From assembly GCF_000194985.1 (NCBI RefSeq), contig NZ_GL878519.1, forward strand, positions 665,570 to 729,569: 64,000 bases of DNA. The letters run 5' to 3'. The translations under genes and the position numbers were made by a program. The notes under the pieces were generated by a model. The model had not been told where the DNA came from, did no database searches, and was given only the letters and a program-made list of their open reading frames with translations. The DNA is from Dialister micraerophilus DSM 19965 (GTDB lineage Bacteria > Bacillota > Negativicutes > Veillonellales > Dialisteraceae). Each line of letters opens with the position of its first letter. Positions within the stretch are counted from its first letter, which is position 1. Shown here in pieces: positions 17,427 to 61,270 of the stretch.

Positions 17427-20042
17427 TTATAACTTCTCAATCTTTTCAAGAAGTGCTTTCTCAAACTCTTGAGATTTTTTACTGTTGAAAAACGGTATAC
17501 CTATTATCGTATAATCGGAATTTACAGTTAATGCATTATGCAAAACTTCATGTTTCTCTTCTATTTCAAGTAAAAATTTTTCTTTCCAATTATCTTTTCC
17601 AAAAAACAGTTCACCCTTCGGTTCGATATATACTTGGTAATTTTTATCATTGCCGTAATTATTTTTACGTTCAATAAAAAGCAAGAAATCCGGCTCAAAG
17701 CGATTACCGTTTGCAAATGAATAAATCGCAAGCTCCGGCACACGCTCATTGCGTATAAGATAAAAATTCAATTGCTTTTCTTGAATCTTCGGTCTTATAA
17801 ATTGATCGAAACGTTTCACGAAAAGTTTTTCTTCACTTGTACCGTAATTATCTTCAAATGCAAACCATGAATTATTAAATAAATTCATTTGATACTTTTC
17901 ATTGGAATTTTCATTTTGCGATTCGCCCTTACCCCCGTTTTCATCAATATGAGAAAGCTGTATCGATTTGCTACGTATAATATCGGACAATTTATGCGGA
18001 TAAAACTCTCGACTTCCTTCAAACTCCGGTTTCAAATTCAAAATACGTGACGAAATATCGGAAAACGCCTCTTTTACAAGACCGTTGAAAATATCTCGAC
18101 TTGTAAAATCTAAAGAATAACACAGTTCCAACGAATTATTTCCCAAGTATTTCTCACCGGTTAAAAACTCACGTACCGATTTCAAATGCGGATATTTTTC
18201 TTTCAATACATTGAAACGAAGCTCACGATAACACTCCGAAGCTCCGCATAAAATATTGTAGGGAATTTCGGAAAACTTGAAAACTTTACTCTTACCGTTC
18301 TCTTGCCTTTTTTTCAATCTTACGGAAAACAAATTTGAGATTTTTCCTTGTGAATCAGGAACATTATAAAAATACGGCTTGTTTTTAAAATTATCTTCCA
18401 ATTCGGTAATATTGCTTCTGTCTTTAGGTATTCGTTTATTTGAAAAAACTACGCCTTTTTTGTAAAAATCCGACTCCATAAATGATGCTTTCAAAATATT
18501 TTTTATTATAATCGGCTTTTCATCCGCCATACCGCTCTCAACCAATGCACGATTAAGTTCTGCAATATATTTCGAGTCATCTTTTGAATGAAAATACATC
18601 GTTTCAAGAATGCGATACTTGTTATCCAAATCATAATCATATTTACGCTTGAAACGTTCTTGAGAACAGTCTAATTGAAACGGACAATATCTCGCACCAC
18701 GACCGATAAGCTGAGCTTCTCTTATAGTATAAGGAGAAATTTTCTTACCGCTCTGACGTGTATCGTACAAACGCACGATATCGAAGAGATTTAAAACGTC
18801 CCAACCTTCATTGAGCATATCTACAGCAAAAACGGAGCGAATATTATTATCTTTATCCTCAAGTGAATTTACAAGCAATTGCTTTTTTACGGTATTGTCA
18901 TCGTTTCCGTTCATAATAATACATTTTTCTTCATCAAAAGAATCCTGCAAGGAATTTATAAGAAATGCAAAAGTCTTGTCCCTTTGATTGAAAAAGTCCA
19001 AAGCATTCCTCAGACTCCCGATACCTACCGTATAAAGTTCTTCGATATCGGTAGACGAAAGATTTTTCAATTTTTCAAAAAATTCTACATAAAAAGCCTT
19101 GGACTCTTTAATTATTTGCGACTTGAAAAGTACGACCGGCTTTACATTCACACCGGCATCGGCAAAAAGATACTTTCTGTACTCGCTCATAATAATTGCC
19201 ATCAATGCGCGTTGCCACAAAGTGGAATTTGTACGGAAATTGTCAAACTCCTTTGTATATCCCGACTTACGAAATTCTTTCAAAGGATAATTATAAATCA
19301 TCTTATCTATATACTTTGCAAGAACGTTTTTATCCTTTAAATTACATGTCGCCGTAAATTCGAGCATTATATTGTCACGATTTGCACAAAAAGCACGCAA
19401 AACGGAATATTCCCAAGAATTTTCATCTTCCGTTTCCGACTTTGTTTTCTTTTTCGTCGCTGAATTTACATGATGAGATTCATCTGAAATAAAAACGATT
19501 TTTTTATTTTCAAAATCTTCATAAGTAAGAGAATTTTCCGACGGTACGCTTAAATCCATGTGTAATTTTTGAGTTGTAAGGAAACAAATATTTATATCTC
19601 CGGAATTTTCCGAAACATGCGAAAAATTTGCAACGGAATTGATTTTTATATTTTCACCGGCATAAACAAGTTCATTTGCAAAAAGATACTTAGATGAAAG
19701 AGCATTCAAAAAATTATCCTTAGTTTTTTCCAAAATATTCGTCTGATTTACAAAGAAAATAAAGTTACGATAACCGTGCATGTACAAGTACAATATAAGC
19801 CCCGCCATTATAACCGTTTTCCCCGAACCGGTCGCCATATGGAAAAGTGTATGCACTTGTTTGTTTTTCCTTAAATTTTCATTTTCAAAATACGTAATGA
19901 AATATTGAAACGCTTCTTTCTGATAATCTCTCAAATTTATACGTGACGAAAGCGAACTTTCCACAAAATATGGAACATCTTTCAAATTGCCGGATTCTTT
20001 CAATGCGTCCAATGTTTTGTACAAAAATTTCGTATCCATCAT
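17427..20042 (-). CDS. res: Type III restriction enzyme, Res subunit
   Basis: The 871-residue ATP-dependent restriction subunit needs Mod for site recognition. The SF2 helicase core shows motif I ATGSGKT at residues 70-76, motif II SDESHH near 190, and later motifs LNEGWDV and QLIGRGARY. Near the C-terminus, FEPDFLLF followed by YIEPKG fits the PD-(D/E)XK nuclease of this family. The length is usual and the frame is intact. The start overlaps the mod stop by a few bases, so translation is coupled. Because mod is out of frame upstream, restriction is probably silent in the sequenced state. Confidence 0.92.
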   Translation of the reverse strand: MMDTKFLYKTLDALKESGNLKDVPYFVESSLSSRINLRDYQKEAFQYFITYFENENLRKNKQVHTLFHMATGSGKTVIMAGLILYLYMHGYRNFIFFVNQTNILEKTKDNFLNALSSKYLFANELVYAGENIKINSVANFSHVSENSGDINICFLTTQKLHMDLSVPSENSLTYEDFENKKIVFISDESHHVNSATKKKTKSETEDENSWEYSVLRAFCANRDNIMLEFTATCNLKDKNVLAKYIDKMIYNYPLKEFRKSGYTKEFDNFRTNSTLWQRALMAIIMSEYRKYLFADAGVNVKPVVLFKSQIIKESKAFYVEFFEKLKNLSSTDIEELYTVGIGSLRNALDFFNQRDKTFAFLINSLQDSFDEEKCIIMNGNDDNTVKKQLLVNSLEDKDNNIRSVFAVDMLNEGWDVLNLFDIVRLYDTRQSGKKISPYTIREAQLIGRGARYCPFQLDCSQERFKRKYDYDLDNKYRILETMYFHSKDDSKYIAELNRALVESGMADEKPIIIKNILKASFMESDFYKKGVVFSNKRIPKDRSNITELEDNFKNKPYFYNVPDSQGKISNLFSVRLKKRQENGKSKVFKFSEIPYNILCGASECYRELRFNVLKEKYPHLKSVREFLTGEKYLGNNSLELCYSLDFTSRDIFNGLVKEAFSDISSRILNLKPEFEGSREFYPHKLSDIIRSKSIQLSHIDENGGKGESQNENSNEKYQMNLFNNSWFAFEDNYGTSEEKLFVKRFDQFIRPKIQEKQLNFYLIRNERVPELAIYSFANGNRFEPDFLLFIERKNNYGNDKNYQVYIEPKGELFFGKDNWKEKFLLEIEEKHEVLHNALTVNSDYTIIGIPFFNSKKSQEFEKALLEKIEKL

Positions 20043-22008
20043 TGCACCTCATAGAATGAGCGTGTAAATACTTTATCTTCTTCGGACACATGTCGCTCTT
20101 CGTCTTCCATTTCGGAGTAATTTACATAGAGTTTGTTCTTGTCGATAAGAGAGAGTAAAATTTTCTTCTTGTCTTCAAGTGATGCCTTTTCAAATTCTTC
20201 TTCAGCCTTTTGTAAATCAGCTTTAGTAATATACGGCACAATGCGTTTATCATTGTAAATTTCTTCTTTTATTTGTGAAATATTATGTCCGCTCGCCTTT
20301 TGCACTCTATTTACAAGGTACTGTGCGTCTTCCAAAAGTTCACAATATACAAATGAACCTCCGCCTTGCCAATTTACGGCTTTCGATATACCCCCTTGTT
20401 CACCTTCGATAACTTTTTTCAGTCTTTCGACGGTAATATCTTTTATATAGTCCATCTGCTCTATACCGATATAACGACGTCCCATCTTATGAGCAACGGC
20501 AGCGGTAGTACCGGAACCCAAATTAAAATCGAGAACGATATCATTTTCTTTGGTTGAAGATAACAAAATATCCTTTATTAATCTCTCTGGCTTTTGTCCT
20601 TCTCCAAACCCTTTTATTCCCTCTTTATTAATATTTCCCATATCTTTCTCATAGCCTACATCCCAAAAATCACCTCTTAAAATAGTCAACTCCTTATCTT
20701 CATTAAATTTCCAACTCAAAGGTTCCATTCTTTCATACCCTGAATCAGTATCAAATATTAATTCATATTCATCACTATTTTCTTTAAAAACTTTATAAAC
20801 ATAATTTCTTGATTTACTTTTTTCTTTACGTTCAAATATCTTAAATTTTTCATCTATTCTATCTACAGCCCACTTTGAAGGTTTATCTCTTCTATATATT
20901 TTTTCATGATTTTTTTGTATATATTTTTTTATATCTTTAAAGTCAAAATATTTTTTTATATCTATATTTTCATAATTTTCAAAAACTTTAATTATTTTAT
21001 CTCTTAAAGAAGTAAAAGTTTCACCATCAAAATAAATTGTATAATTTACTTCATACTCACTCATTACATCATTTATTTTAGATAAATTTATAGTATTTTT
21101 CTTATATAACAAAATAAATTCTTTATTTTTTATAAACTTAATATTTGCAAATCTTCTTTTTACACCGCTAGATGGTGACATTTTTTACAGCTATATTATT
21201 TACAAAATTTTCTTTCCCAAAAATATCGTCCATAAGCACTTTTAGATATGCCTGTTCATTGTCGTCACATTGCACGAAAATTACTCCGTCATCTCTTAGT
21301 AGTTTTCTTGCGAGTTCGAGTCTGTTTTTCATGAATGTGAGCCATGTAGAGTGATTGAAATTGTCGTTGTAATTAAAGCTGTCGTTTCCCGTATTATACG
21401 GCGGATCGATATAGATACATTTTACTTTGCCTTCGTAACGTTTCAGAAGTGATGCGAGTGCGAGCAGATTATTTCCTTTTATGATAAGGTTGTCATCTTC
21501 CGAAAAAGTTTTACAAGGTTTTACCCCCCCCCACACTGTACCACGCAGCATGCGTGAAGACTTTCGGTTCCATAAGTCTTCGTACTTCATCTATTGCAAG
21601 TGTTTCATTATAAAATATTTCACTTCTTTTTTGATCGTCTTTTGTCTGTCCGCCTTCGAGTATGCAGTCTTTATACGGAAAATCTAAAACTACATCGTTT
21701 TTCCCGCTTAAGTATTCTCCATGTACTGTAAGTCCTATTTTGTTTGCATATGCGGTATAAGAGTCCGGTAAAAATTCCTTTGATTCAACAGTCCATGCCG
21801 TCTTACTTTTATCGAACACAAGAGTTCCGTCTACATCAACAAAAAACGTTTTTTTGATTTCTTCATCGGAAAGCAAAAGTTTTATAAACTCTTTGTTCAT
21901 TGTTTGAATATCTTCATACACTTTCGCTTTCAGAAGTGTACCGTCTTCGGCAATATATTTCTCTTTACTCTTGAGTAAGTTCTCGAGTTTATCATAAAAT
22001 CTGCTCAT
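20039..22008 (-). pseudogene. mod: Type III DNA methyltransferase Mod, phase-variable, out of frame as sequenced
   Basis: The gene lies in three frames. Part 1 (22008 to about 21530) is the conserved N-terminus, with DVDGTLVFDK, VVLDFPYKD and GGQTKDDQKR. Part 2 (to about 21180) holds IKGNNLLALASL and catalytic DPPYNTGNDSF. Part 3 (21181-20039) holds the AT-rich target-recognition region and the AdoMet motif LGSGTTAAVAHKMGRRYIG. The first break is in a G9 tract; G8 would restore the frame. The second is in an A6 run, where A5 would join NNIAVK to MSPSSG. This gives the beta-class order: catalytic motif, recognition domain, AdoMet motif. The start at 22008 follows an AGGTG site. Poly-G switching of mod genes is a known mechanism of phase variation; the A6 break may be a real lesion or a sequence error. 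Confidence 0.85.
21524..21532 (-). repeat. G9 homopolymer tract inside mod
   Basis: Nine C on the plus strand (nine G on the coding strand) sit exactly where the reading frame of the methyltransferase changes. Frame 1 runs out to a stop soon after the tract, while the catalytic domain continues in the frame that needs one G fewer. Tract length and location fit slipped-strand phase variation. Confidence 0.85.
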
Positions 22009-35531: not shown

Positions 35532-36413
35532 TTACTTAAGCGTGACATTGTACTTCTCTGCAAAATGATCGGGATGATACTCGTTTTTTGCTTTCCTCAA
35601 GCCTTCAATACCTAAATCCTCTTCGCGATTTACGAACTCGGTATCTTTGAACTCATTAAGAATAAAATCTCTGTTTATCGCCTGATATAAACCGCGCACC
35701 TCAGGATTTGCCTTTTCAAAATGTATATGTGCGACATTTTCATTAAGCAAATCTCCGCAAGTAAAAGCCTCTACCTTGCCATAAATACGAATAACGGCAC
35801 CTTTTAAGCCCAACGCCTTCCAATTGTCGAAAGCGAGATTTATGGCCTCTTCCTCTTTTTCAATATCACCATGACGCACGAACCATTCACTTATTCCTCT
35901 ACGAGCATCCTCCATATTTGTATCATTTACGGGTTCATACACATAGTCACCATATTCTCTTAAAAAATGATTCAGGTGGTTCTTTTTCATTCTGAATTTC
36001 TTTCCGGAAAGATTGATCAGATCACTCGTCTTGTAAATATACTCCCAATCATCACGAAAGGGCGTGAAAAGATACTTATCCGGTACTTGCGTCTCAATTT
36101 TTTCTACAACCTCTTTTGAGGCACCCATCAACATGAAAGGATGACCTGTTTTATCAAACTCATGCTGAATTAATTCCAAACCGTGAGAAAAAGAAGCACC
36201 TTCTTTTGCAAACGGCGGCATGAAATAGACTTGAGTTCCCCTTCCTGCACGTATGAACAAAATATCGTCCTGCTCTGCCCACATCGTATTGTAAGAATTT
36301 TGCCATAAAAATAATGTGTTGAACGAACAATCACATTGCTCATAATGATGAACCTTGAAAAAATCATTTATTCTTTCCTTATCGTCTATATTAAACCGTC
36401 GGAATTCTATGAT
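35532..36413 (-). CDS. DUF2156 (phosphatidylglycerol lysyltransferase C-terminal-like) protein, non-AUG start
   Basis: The GNAT-like DUF2156 fold is usually about 290 residues. The first ATG (36284) would give only 250 and has no ribosome site. The frame continues upstream with family-like sequence (CDCSFNTLFLWQNSYNT) to IEFRRFNIDDKER. There GGAGGGAGG is followed five bases later by ATC (36413-36411) and then ATA; no ATG, GTG or TTG lies in frame upstream. I therefore start it at 36413 (293 residues) with a non-canonical codon. The alternative is a mutated ATG and a gene with reduced expression. Confidence 0.7.
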   Translation of the reverse strand: MIEFRRFNIDDKERINDFFKVHHYEQCDCSFNTLFLWQNSYNTMWAEQDDILFIRAGRGTQVYFMPPFAKEGASFSHGLELIQHEFDKTGHPFMLMGASKEVVEKIETQVPDKYLFTPFRDDWEYIYKTSDLINLSGKKFRMKKNHLNHFLREYGDYVYEPVNDTNMEDARRGISEWFVRHGDIEKEEEAINLAFDNWKALGLKGAVIRIYGKVEAFTCGDLLNENVAHIHFEKANPEVRGLYQAINRDFILNEFKDTEFVNREEDLGIEGLRKAKNEYHPDHFAEKYNVTLK

Positions 36414-37116
36414 TTTCGCCTCCCTCCGACCTTCGAATAAAAATTATACCGAAGTCCTACCCATAATTTAAACCTTTATCGGAAAATTTTCAAATCAAAC
36501 TATAATATTAGAAAATTTACGCAACTGTTCACAACGAAAATACAAAAACAGGAAAGTTTGTTCGTTAAAATAAAAAAACTCCTTTTTTTACGTGTTTTTT
36601 ACAAAAAATACAACATTAAAATCAATAAAATCTGCATTTTAATTTTGTAAAATAAAAAGTTATTCACAGTTATTCACAAATATTTTTCATATTTCCACAT
36701 CTTAAAAAACTCGACAAAATAAAGTTTTTTTGCTATTCTCAATTAAAACGACGAAAATTTTATTCACATTTTTAAACCTGTATTTTTGTACACTCCTTGT
36801 AAACAATTCACAAAAAATGCATTTTTACTGTTTTTTTTCAATTTATAAATTTGTTATTGTCACAACTTGTGGAAAACTGTGAATAAGTATGTGAAAAAGG
36901 TGAATAACTGCGTATTTTACACATTTTTTACATCTTTGTTTTCAAAAAATTACACATTGGAAAATACAAACTTCCGTTTTTGTTTTCGTTATTCTCATTT
37001 AAACATATCGAAAATAATCTATATTTATATATTACCACAGTTGTCGCATTTTTCATAAATTTGTATTAAAATATCAGTTATGAATTTAAAAAAAATTATA
37101 ATAAAAGGTATTTTAT
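36414..37116. other. Gene-free divergent spacer with a DnaA-box cluster
   Basis: About 700 AT-rich bases between a minus-strand and a plus-strand gene. Exact TTATTCACA occurs at 36661-36669, 36671-36679 and 36761-36769. The reverse form TGTGAATAA is at 36878-36886. One-mismatch forms lie at 36868-36876 (TGTGGAAAA), 36890-36898 and 36899-36907. Left and right groups face each other around an AT-rich centre. The same motif forms the oriC boxes beside dnaA in this window. No TAG-triplet run is seen here. Confidence 0.6.
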
Positions 37117-59463: not shown

Positions 59464-59610
59464 CAGTAGTAGTAGTAGTATGGTGTGAAAAAGTGAATAA
59501 GTCTGTGAAAATAAGTTGTTGTGCGTTTTTCGGATTGTTTAAAATCTTGTGAATTGTTGAATTCTTTTTCAATTTATTCACAGTTTTATTGTCAACTTGA
59601 GTTATTCACA
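59464..59610. other. oriC: oriC unwinding region in the dnaA-dnaN spacer: DnaA boxes and DnaA-trio
   Basis: On the plus strand a CAG and four TAG triplets run from 59464 to 59478. Next, box-like TGTGAAAAA (59484-59492), AGTGAATAA (59492-59500), TGTGAAAAT (59504-59512) and TGTGAATTG (59548-59556) follow. TTATTCACA is at 59574-59582 and again at 59602-59610. AT-rich sequence lies on the far side of the triplets. Boxes, triplet run and AT-rich stretch in this order are the architecture described for the B. subtilis unwinding site. Confidence 0.8.
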
Positions 59611-59627: not shown

Positions 59628-61112
59628 TCAAATGTTTTTCAACATGTTTGAAAGTTCTTCTATTATTTTTTTAGTTTCGTTGTCTTTTGCAATGTCTTTT
59701 TCTACTCTTTCGCATGCATACAGTATTGTTGAGTGGTCTTTTCTTTTGAATATGTCTCTTAGTATCGGAAATGAAAGGTTGAGTTCTTTTCTGCAAAGGT
59801 ACATTGCTATTTGTCTTGGGATTACTATGTTTTTCGGTCTTCCTTTACCCAATAGATTTTCTTTTTTTACGTTGAATTTGTTGCAAACCGTATTTATGAT
59901 TATTTCCGGTGTAATTTCACGATTTTGTTCCAAAGGAATTTGATCTTTGAGTGTTTCTTTTGCAAATTCGAGTGTTATTTCTTTTTTCTTTACTTTTGCA
60001 TATGTGACGAGTTTATTGAATGCTCCGTCAAGTTCTCTTACGTTTGTATTTATGTGTTCCGCTATATAATTTATGACTTCAGACGGTATGTTTATTCCCT
60101 CTTTTTCCGCTCTTTTTTCCAGAATTATCGAGCATATTTCATAGTCCGGCGGAGATATCGGTACTATAAGTCCGCTTGAAAATCTTGTCTGTATTCTGTC
60201 TTCCAGTTCTTCTATGTCGCTTGGTGTACGATCGCTTGTGAGTATGATGTGTTTTTTGTTGTCGAAAAGTGTGTTGAATGTGTTGAAGATTTCCATTTTC
60301 GATGAGTTTTTCGATCCGAAGAATTGTACGTCGTCTATAAGAAGGTAGTCAGGATTTCTGTATTTTTCACGAAATTTCGGCATTGAATTTGATTTGATTG
60401 ATGCTATCAGTTCGTTTGTAAATGTTTCGCTTGATACAAATATGTATGAGAGATGCGGTGCATTTTCTCTTATGTAGTTACATATTGCATGGAGAAGGTG
60501 TGTTTTTCCGAGTCCTGACGGTCCGTATATGAAGAGAGGATTCATTTTTTTATCCATTTCTTCCATGTTTACAGCCATTTGCGCAACCGACAGTGCCGAT
60601 TGGAATGCCATTTCGTTACAGTTTCCGTGAACGAATGTTTCAAATGTGTGTTCGGTATTTATCGGATTTGGACTTTTATATACCGGCTTTTCTTTTATTT
60701 TTGTTTGTTTGGAGTAATTTTGTATGCTTGGAAGTACTATGTCTTGTGAGTTTTTAGGTATATTTATAAGTATATTTTCCGGAGGATTGTAAGGTTTTAC
60801 TTCGTCCATAAGAGGAAGTTTTTCTTCTTCCATGAAGTCCGGTATTTTTTCCGATTTTTTTTCTTCGTGATCTTCTTTTGATAAAATTATTATTTTCATC
60901 GGTTTATTAAGTTTTTCACTTATAATCGTTTCAAGTTTTGTTTTATAGAGTGCTTCTATCCAACTTACAAGATACGGGTCTTGTGTGATTATAGTGAGTT
61001 CTTTTTCGTCCAATAGTGACGGAAAAATTTTTTTGTAGAACATTTCGTAGTATTGGGGGTCGTTCTTTTTTATGTATTCGAGTATAAAACCCCATAGAGT
61101 GAAAAGGTTCAT
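59628..61112 (-). CDS. dnaA: Chromosomal replication initiator DnaA
   Basis: The initiator is 494 residues. The N-terminal domain (to about 85) is followed by a long charged linker. The AAA+ core has Walker A GPSGLGKT at residues 197-204 and Walker B LLIDDVQFF near 257. The C-terminal DNA-binding domain shows PRQIAMYLCRKEL and KDHSTILYACERV near residue 450. It opens the double strand at oriC, whose boxes flank the gene on both sides. It is the first gene of the dnaA-dnaN-yaaA-recF block. Confidence 0.97.
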   Translation of the reverse strand: MNLFTLWGFILEYIKKNDPQYYEMFYKKIFPSLLDEKELTIITQDPYLVSWIEALYKTKLETIISEKLNKPMKIIILSKEDHEEKKSEKIPDFMEEEKLPLMDEVKPYNPPENILINIPKNSQDIVLPSIQNYSKQTKIKEKPVYKSPNPINTEHTFETFVHGNCNEMAFQSALSVAQMAVNMEEMDKKMNPLFIYGPSGLGKTHLLHAICNYIRENAPHLSYIFVSSETFTNELIASIKSNSMPKFREKYRNPDYLLIDDVQFFGSKNSSKMEIFNTFNTLFDNKKHIILTSDRTPSDIEELEDRIQTRFSSGLIVPISPPDYEICSIILEKRAEKEGINIPSEVINYIAEHINTNVRELDGAFNKLVTYAKVKKKEITLEFAKETLKDQIPLEQNREITPEIIINTVCNKFNVKKENLLGKGRPKNIVIPRQIAMYLCRKELNLSFPILRDIFKRKDHSTILYACERVEKDIAKDNETKKIIEELSNMLKNI

Positions 61113-61270
61113 ATAAATCCTTTCTGTTGTGTGAAAGATTGTGAAAATATTGTGAATATTTGTGAATAAATTTTAAATTTTTTTTAAAATATGTAATATT
61201 TGTCGATAAAATCTGTTTTTTTCAGTGTGTATACTTGTGTTTAAAAATTTTATATATCTGTGAATAACTT
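61113..61270. other. DnaA boxes upstream of dnaA
   Basis: TGTGAATAA occurs exactly at 61161-61169 and 61259-61267. Near forms TGTGAAAGA, TGTGAAAAT and TGTGAATAT lie between about 61130 and 61160. The region is AT-rich. It probably serves both as the dnaA promoter/autoregulation region and as the second part of a bipartite oriC. Confidence 0.7.

Follow-up and report, generated by a model that had tools for sequence, protein, structure and literature searches.

Introduction

Chromosomal sites that tune the initiator DnaA are well defined in E. coli. The essential DnaA boxes of datA all lie in one orientation, and boxes arranged head to head are named as the prominent feature of DARS (PMC5742627). 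B. subtilis is described as having neither datA nor DARS (PMC13220808). Two papers describe six oriC-proximal DnaA-box clusters (DBCs) outside oriC in B. subtilis, identified by Okumura et al. 2012, and early initiation upon loss of all six (PMC5295017, PMC13220808). A single-locus element outside the origin, kept in sequence and spacing across several families of the Negativicutes, would mean that Bacillota, too, evolved or retained dedicated sites for the control of DnaA. Here we analyse a candidate for such an element in a 64,000-nucleotide stretch of a Dialister genome (the window); we found no description of it in the open-access literature searched. Judged from sequence comparison, it is quite likely to be a conserved, origin-proximal site that regulates DnaA without being an origin, similar to datA, DARS or the DBCs.

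Results

DnaA boxes are concentrated in a gene-free spacer

The first-pass annotation of the window had pointed to two facing groups of DnaA boxes in a gene-free spacer of about 700 bp. A pattern search of the window found exact TTATTCACA boxes at 36660-36668, 36670-36678 and 36760-36768 on the plus strand and at 36878-36886 on the minus strand, together with one-mismatch boxes at 36868, 36890 and 36899 (all minus) and at 36915 (plus), confirming both groups at the positions given, and the interval from about 36415 to 37116 indeed contains no genes. The four exact boxes fall inside 227 bp of the spacer, where about 0.003 would be expected. The whole genome of 1,280,035 bp holds 17 TTATTCACA sites, about one per 75 kb, eight of which fall in the window, four of them in the spacer and four around dnaA, two per side. 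Dinucleotide shuffles gave an expectation of 1.35 sites for the window, and eight were reached in 0/100 shuffles. TTATNCACA occurs at 47 sites genome-wide, below the 73 of a reversed control pattern. The spacer is the densest exact-box cluster of the genome, and nowhere else do four TTATNCACA sites lie within 300 bp. Since there are 17 TTATTCACA sites genome-wide and no second place of this TTATNCACA density, similar clusters are not common by chance in this genome, an objection that the annotation had itself anticipated. An Rfam search of the spacer gave zero matches. A reading of the repeats as RNA structure was set aside, the left tandem boxes being spaced by 10 bp and the right ones by 12 bp, which is unsuited to a continuous stem.

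The element is conserved at one locus per genome in Dialisteraceae

When the spacer DNA was used as a query, box clusters were matched in three relatives, none of them adjoining dnaA; second own-genome matches (L040, L041) fall in a low-complexity A/T stretch to the left of the boxes and were set aside. The nearest named matches to the dnaA locus come from Dialister succinatiphilus and two Dialister MAGs, which appear to be the same genomes as our G002, G003 and G005, given that the contig coordinates of the matches coincide. A sequence-only profile (R1), made from an alignment of the elements of four relatives with the present genome left out, identified one element locus per genome in 12/12 family genomes, eight of them outside the training set. 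In the window genome the spacer was the sole place matched (E=8.2e-7 genome-wide); within the window its value was 4.3e-8, and that of the next best match 7e-4. The R1 score of the window was reached by 1/1000 block permutations with random orientation, by 3/1000 block permutations that kept orientation and by 0/300 shuffles. The presence of boxes alone therefore does not account for the score.

In Dialister, the element has two rightward boxes in tandem, 1 bp apart, then, after about 6 bp, a TGTGTAyATCTCCAGTGkACA block and, after a further 60-70 bp, a leftward array in which boxes are separated by gaps of 1 and 3 bp. In the right arm, the stretch separating the facing boxes is shorter in G002, G003 and G005 than in G004 by a deletion of 10 bp, about one helical turn. 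The window copy extends over 36760..36907 on the plus strand in profile orientation, its core being matched by R1 at 36760-36899. Its left arm retains the exact box at 36760..36768 (plus), the tandem partner of which has decayed to TTTTTAAAC; two tandem exact boxes, TTATTCACA-1bp-TTATTCACA, lie at 36660..36678 (plus), about 100 bp outside the profile core, and other Dialister elements typically have such a pair, separated by 1 bp, as their left arm. Alignment places a diverged copy of the conserved block, containing two weak leftward boxes, at 36785..36805 (plus). It is followed by a degenerate box, ATTGTCACA, read from the sequence at 36856..36864 (plus), in which CACA is kept and which is separated by 13 bp from the exact leftward box that follows. 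The leftward array at 36868..36907 (minus), the best conserved part of the element in the alignment, comprises TGTGGAAAA at 36868, the exact TGTGAATAA at 36878, TGTGAAAAA at 36890 and GGTGAATAA at 36899.

The window copy is the lowest-scoring and most diverged of the 12 family copies, and its left arm is partly decayed, with one good box and the strong tandem pair 100 bp further left. Such divergence would be expected if the cluster were a product of chance or a functionless remnant decaying in this species. We give this explanation very little credence, given that exact boxes stand here at the highest density in the genome and that their spacing is kept above the level of the permutations.

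Neighbouring genes vary around the element

The left neighbour in the window encodes a phosphatidylglycerol lysyltransferase-type protein (PF09924; 35532..36413, minus), and the right one a sulfatase-family membrane protein (PF00884; 37117..38949, plus), which is not conserved as a neighbour. The left gene probably starts near 36413 at a non-ATG codon and not at the ATG at 36284: an apparent start at ATC or ATA precedes the listed ATG by about 43 codons and follows a GGAGG (36400-36440, minus), and homologues begin with ATG at that upstream position. The lysyltransferase-like gene adjoins the element in 8/12 family genomes and lies downstream of it in these eight, an arrangement that a DnaA-controlled promoter region of this gene, or of another neighbour, would explain. 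In G002, G003 and G004, however, the element is kept without that gene adjoining; it stands beside an ammonium transporter fusion in the first two and beside a metQ-like lipoprotein gene in the third, the lysyltransferase gene lying elsewhere in each genome. No match to the lysyltransferase gene was found in G005, where the element is beside the transporter. In addition, the window element begins about 250 bp from the probable start of the left gene. A promoter function as the explanation of the element is thus unlikely. The element is conserved, present at a single locus, non-coding and independent of any one neighbouring gene.

Two other loci were noted during this comparison. In G006 (L047:1200-8700), a CRISPR-like repeat array with Cas genes, including one for a Cas9-like protein of 1365 residues, lies directly beside the element. 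Elsewhere in the window, at 17427-21590 on the minus strand, a restriction helicase is accompanied by an adenine methyltransferase apparently split in two frames (21168-21590 and 20039-21181); the locus resembles a type III restriction system and looks broken.

The element is probably not an origin

dnaA and dnaN are located at 58-61 kb of the window, with dnaA at 59628..61112 (minus; TIGR00362, 461 bits), 22.7 kb from the cluster. The spacer between the two genes (59464..59610) contains a DnaA-trio run at 59464-59481 and boxes at 59484, 59492, 59574 and 59602, and is probably where oriC unwinds; TAG runs adjoining boxes are the usual basal unwinding arrangement. The same arrangement of trio and boxes was found at five other Dialister loci, and every Dialister examined retains the trio. 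The second half of a bipartite oriC is formed by DnaA boxes upstream of dnaA (61151..61267, minus). The annotation had counted the spacer cluster as the third of its kind, which is fair, the other two being those that flank dnaA as this bipartite origin. It was also right that the boxes beside dnaA are of the same variant, with two exact TTATTCACA on each side, and that the spacer has no TAG run, TAG x4 being found at 59464-59481 in the dnaA-dnaN spacer instead.

It had further been suggested that the cluster could be a second or former origin. As a second, backup or former origin, it would let DnaA open the AT-rich spacer for loading of the helicase. The dense boxes, the gene-free spacer with an AT fraction of up to 0.88 per 100 bp (right of the element core), the short distance to dnaA, the divergence of genes on both sides and a skew minimum only 13 kb off (window about 50000) are consistent with this idea. 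In the window genome, this minimum is broad (705-730 kb; window 49,991) and lies between the element and dnaA, so that skew alone does not tell the two places apart. In G006 (one contig), GC skew and gene orientation both reverse abruptly at 1175-1185 kb, where dnaA is located (1179-1181 kb), whereas the element is at 1085 kb, 94 kb from the strand switch. In G004 (one contig, noisier), the change falls at about 2140-2240 kb around dnaA (2185 kb), and the element, at 2393 kb, is 207 kb away. The element thus stands away from the switch in strand asymmetry in both relatives. Furthermore, no DnaA-trio was found in the window spacer and none was seen at the element in the alignment of 12 relatives, whereas the dnaA-dnaN spacer retains it. 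In GC-rich relatives, AT content rises only modestly at the element, with no clear unwinding peak. The origin-like succession of boxes, DnaA-trios and an AT-rich unwinding element was not seen there. The suggestion of a second or former origin is not supported by these data, and we regard it as quite improbable.

Box clusters also occur in other families of the class

A second profile (R2), built from 12 sequences and trained on Dialister elements, was used for a class-wide search and gave matches in further families; because of this training, the positions and spacing of matches in other families are not fully independent evidence. In family f2, the element was present in 4/4 genomes, separated from nearby dinB by one gene and at a distance of 12-24 kb from dnaA; one of these genomes (G018) gave a weak R2 match (E=0.0045). 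In f3, a box cluster lies downstream of dinB in 13/13 genomes examined, five of which were missed by the profile, and the gene on its other side varies. In f5, f8, f11, f13, f15 and f22, one and the same small gene has its 3' end 10-180 bp from the cluster; the distance is 925 bp in f19. The cluster is near a putative ppk in f11, f13, f15, f19 and f22, with dinB often 4-16 kb off; the names ppk, ppx and azlC used here and below are what we take these genes to be from the starts of their proteins. The matches in f10, f12 and f16 are in other genomic places. The positions downstream of dinB in f3 and at the 3' end of the small gene in other families also argue against a promoter function. A cluster at dinB was not found in f4 (eight genomes) nor in most other families looked at there, so either the function or this location is not shared by the whole class. 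The distance from element to dnaA is about 148-192 kb in G019, G022 and G034, where both are on one contig. In the six genomes with a known size and one main contig, it stays below 9% of genome length.

Some matches were discarded. Three in f3 (L123, L125 and L126) contain almost no boxes; two of these lie about 11 kb from dnaA. Partial R1 and R2 matches in Veillonella-like genomes were rejected because they stem from an array of tandem boxes that lies within an open frame. This array (L127:7700-7850, L128:7390-7550, L129 and L130) is a tandem run of seven DnaA boxes or sequences close to them, with starts spaced by 12, 21, 21, 21, 21 and 12 bp in codon phase, within the frame of an apparent pseudouridine synthase.

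We also observed an uncharacterised protein of about 96 residues with the consensus ...TGVHVDWSRPV (L122 at about 7.7-8.0 kb; L159-L163, L171-L175, L214-L222, L232 and L233). Its gene ends 10-180 bp from the cluster in seven families and 925 bp from it in an eighth; in f4 and f18, it lies near dinB with no cluster. The protein matched no family in Pfam or NCBIfam, and no PDB entry was convincing as a relative. It is a candidate partner or regulator of DnaA.

Box geometry and box variant point to DnaA

Among 43 elements compared, 3-bp tandem gaps occur in 30 genomes of 11 families. A triple consisting of a rightward box (I), 13 bp, a leftward box (II), 3 bp and a second leftward box (III) occurs in 13 genomes of eight families, and the spacing of the degenerate box I of the window agrees with this core of other families. 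The I-II gap is 3 or 6 bp in Dialister (3 bp in two) and 5 bp in two genomes of f16; a facing gap of 5 bp is also seen in several f3 elements, but with a different II-III gap. The fifth base of the box agrees between the element and the oriC of the same lineage, being T in Dialister and mainly C, with some A, in f3; in f2 it is mixed. This agreement points to DnaA as the reader of the element. TGTGA half-sites are known in the sites of other regulators, so the main binder might instead be a CRP/FNR-like regulator or a nucleoid protein, with an incidental likeness to DnaA boxes. There is only a slim chance of this, since the repeats are direct and in tandem with 1- and 3-bp gaps, not one palindrome, and the variant at base 5 tracks the oriC boxes of the lineage.

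Discussion

The first-pass annotation had offered a datA-like site, a site of DnaA reactivation and an origin as readings of the cluster. The first two are strengthened by its conservation, its single locus, its non-coding nature, its independence from neighbours and its use of the oriC box variant of the lineage; the origin part is weakened. We infer that DnaA binds the element, forms a nucleoprotein complex there and thereby affects initiation, and the element probably tunes how often chromosome replication starts. DnaA would bind the two facing arrays to form a defined complex, its molecules being in contact head to tail on tandem boxes and head to head between facing ones. We propose that the element, being near the origin, is copied early after initiation. 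The complex could then alter the amount or the nucleotide state of free DnaA and so set the timing of initiation, by titration or ATP hydrolysis, as for datA or the DBCs of B. subtilis, or by release of ADP, as for DARS. Our leaning gives negative control through titration or inactivation about an even chance, reactivation a distinctly lower one and other modes a lower one still. The element offers one small deletable target per genome and a clear prediction for initiation timing.

A broader proposal, which we consider possible but doubtful, is that this is an ancient element of the Negativicutes that handles the nucleotide cycle of DnaA through a DARS-like head-to-head and tandem core, with an ancestral neighbourhood of azlC, ppk-ppx, the small orphan gene and dinB. 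It would then be a DnaA-reactivating or DnaA-inactivating site outside the Proteobacteria, possibly served by the protein of about 96 residues, the gene for which adjoins it in about eight families.

Among known systems, the bipartite oriC of the same genome shares with the element the variant TTATTCACA and a similar dense leftward array, but it has a DnaA-trio and, in relatives, a position at or near the strand switch, whereas the element has neither. Both the element and datA, which acts on DnaA, lie outside oriC and combine strong with weak DnaA boxes in a cluster. The element is formed by two facing groups, whereas the essential boxes of datA are unidirectional, and it is not classed as datA because of this difference in orientation. 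E. coli DARS1 and DARS2, as read from K-12 DNA, both have the order -> 5 <- 3 <-. The element resembles them in being non-coding and in having a box I that faces box II, with box III in tandem 3 bp after it; it differs in that the I-II gap is 5 bp there and 13 bp in many families here, and in having further arrays. The comparison with the DARS core is mixed, with the topology and the II-III gap agreeing while the I-II gap varies and box I is degenerate in the window, and we do not file the element as DARS. The DBCs of B. subtilis are likewise box clusters outside the oriC of a Bacillota genome, six per genome there as against one profile-detected locus per genome here. The element is such a cluster outside oriC, above background, and the DBCs of B. 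subtilis are its closest functional precedent in Bacillota.
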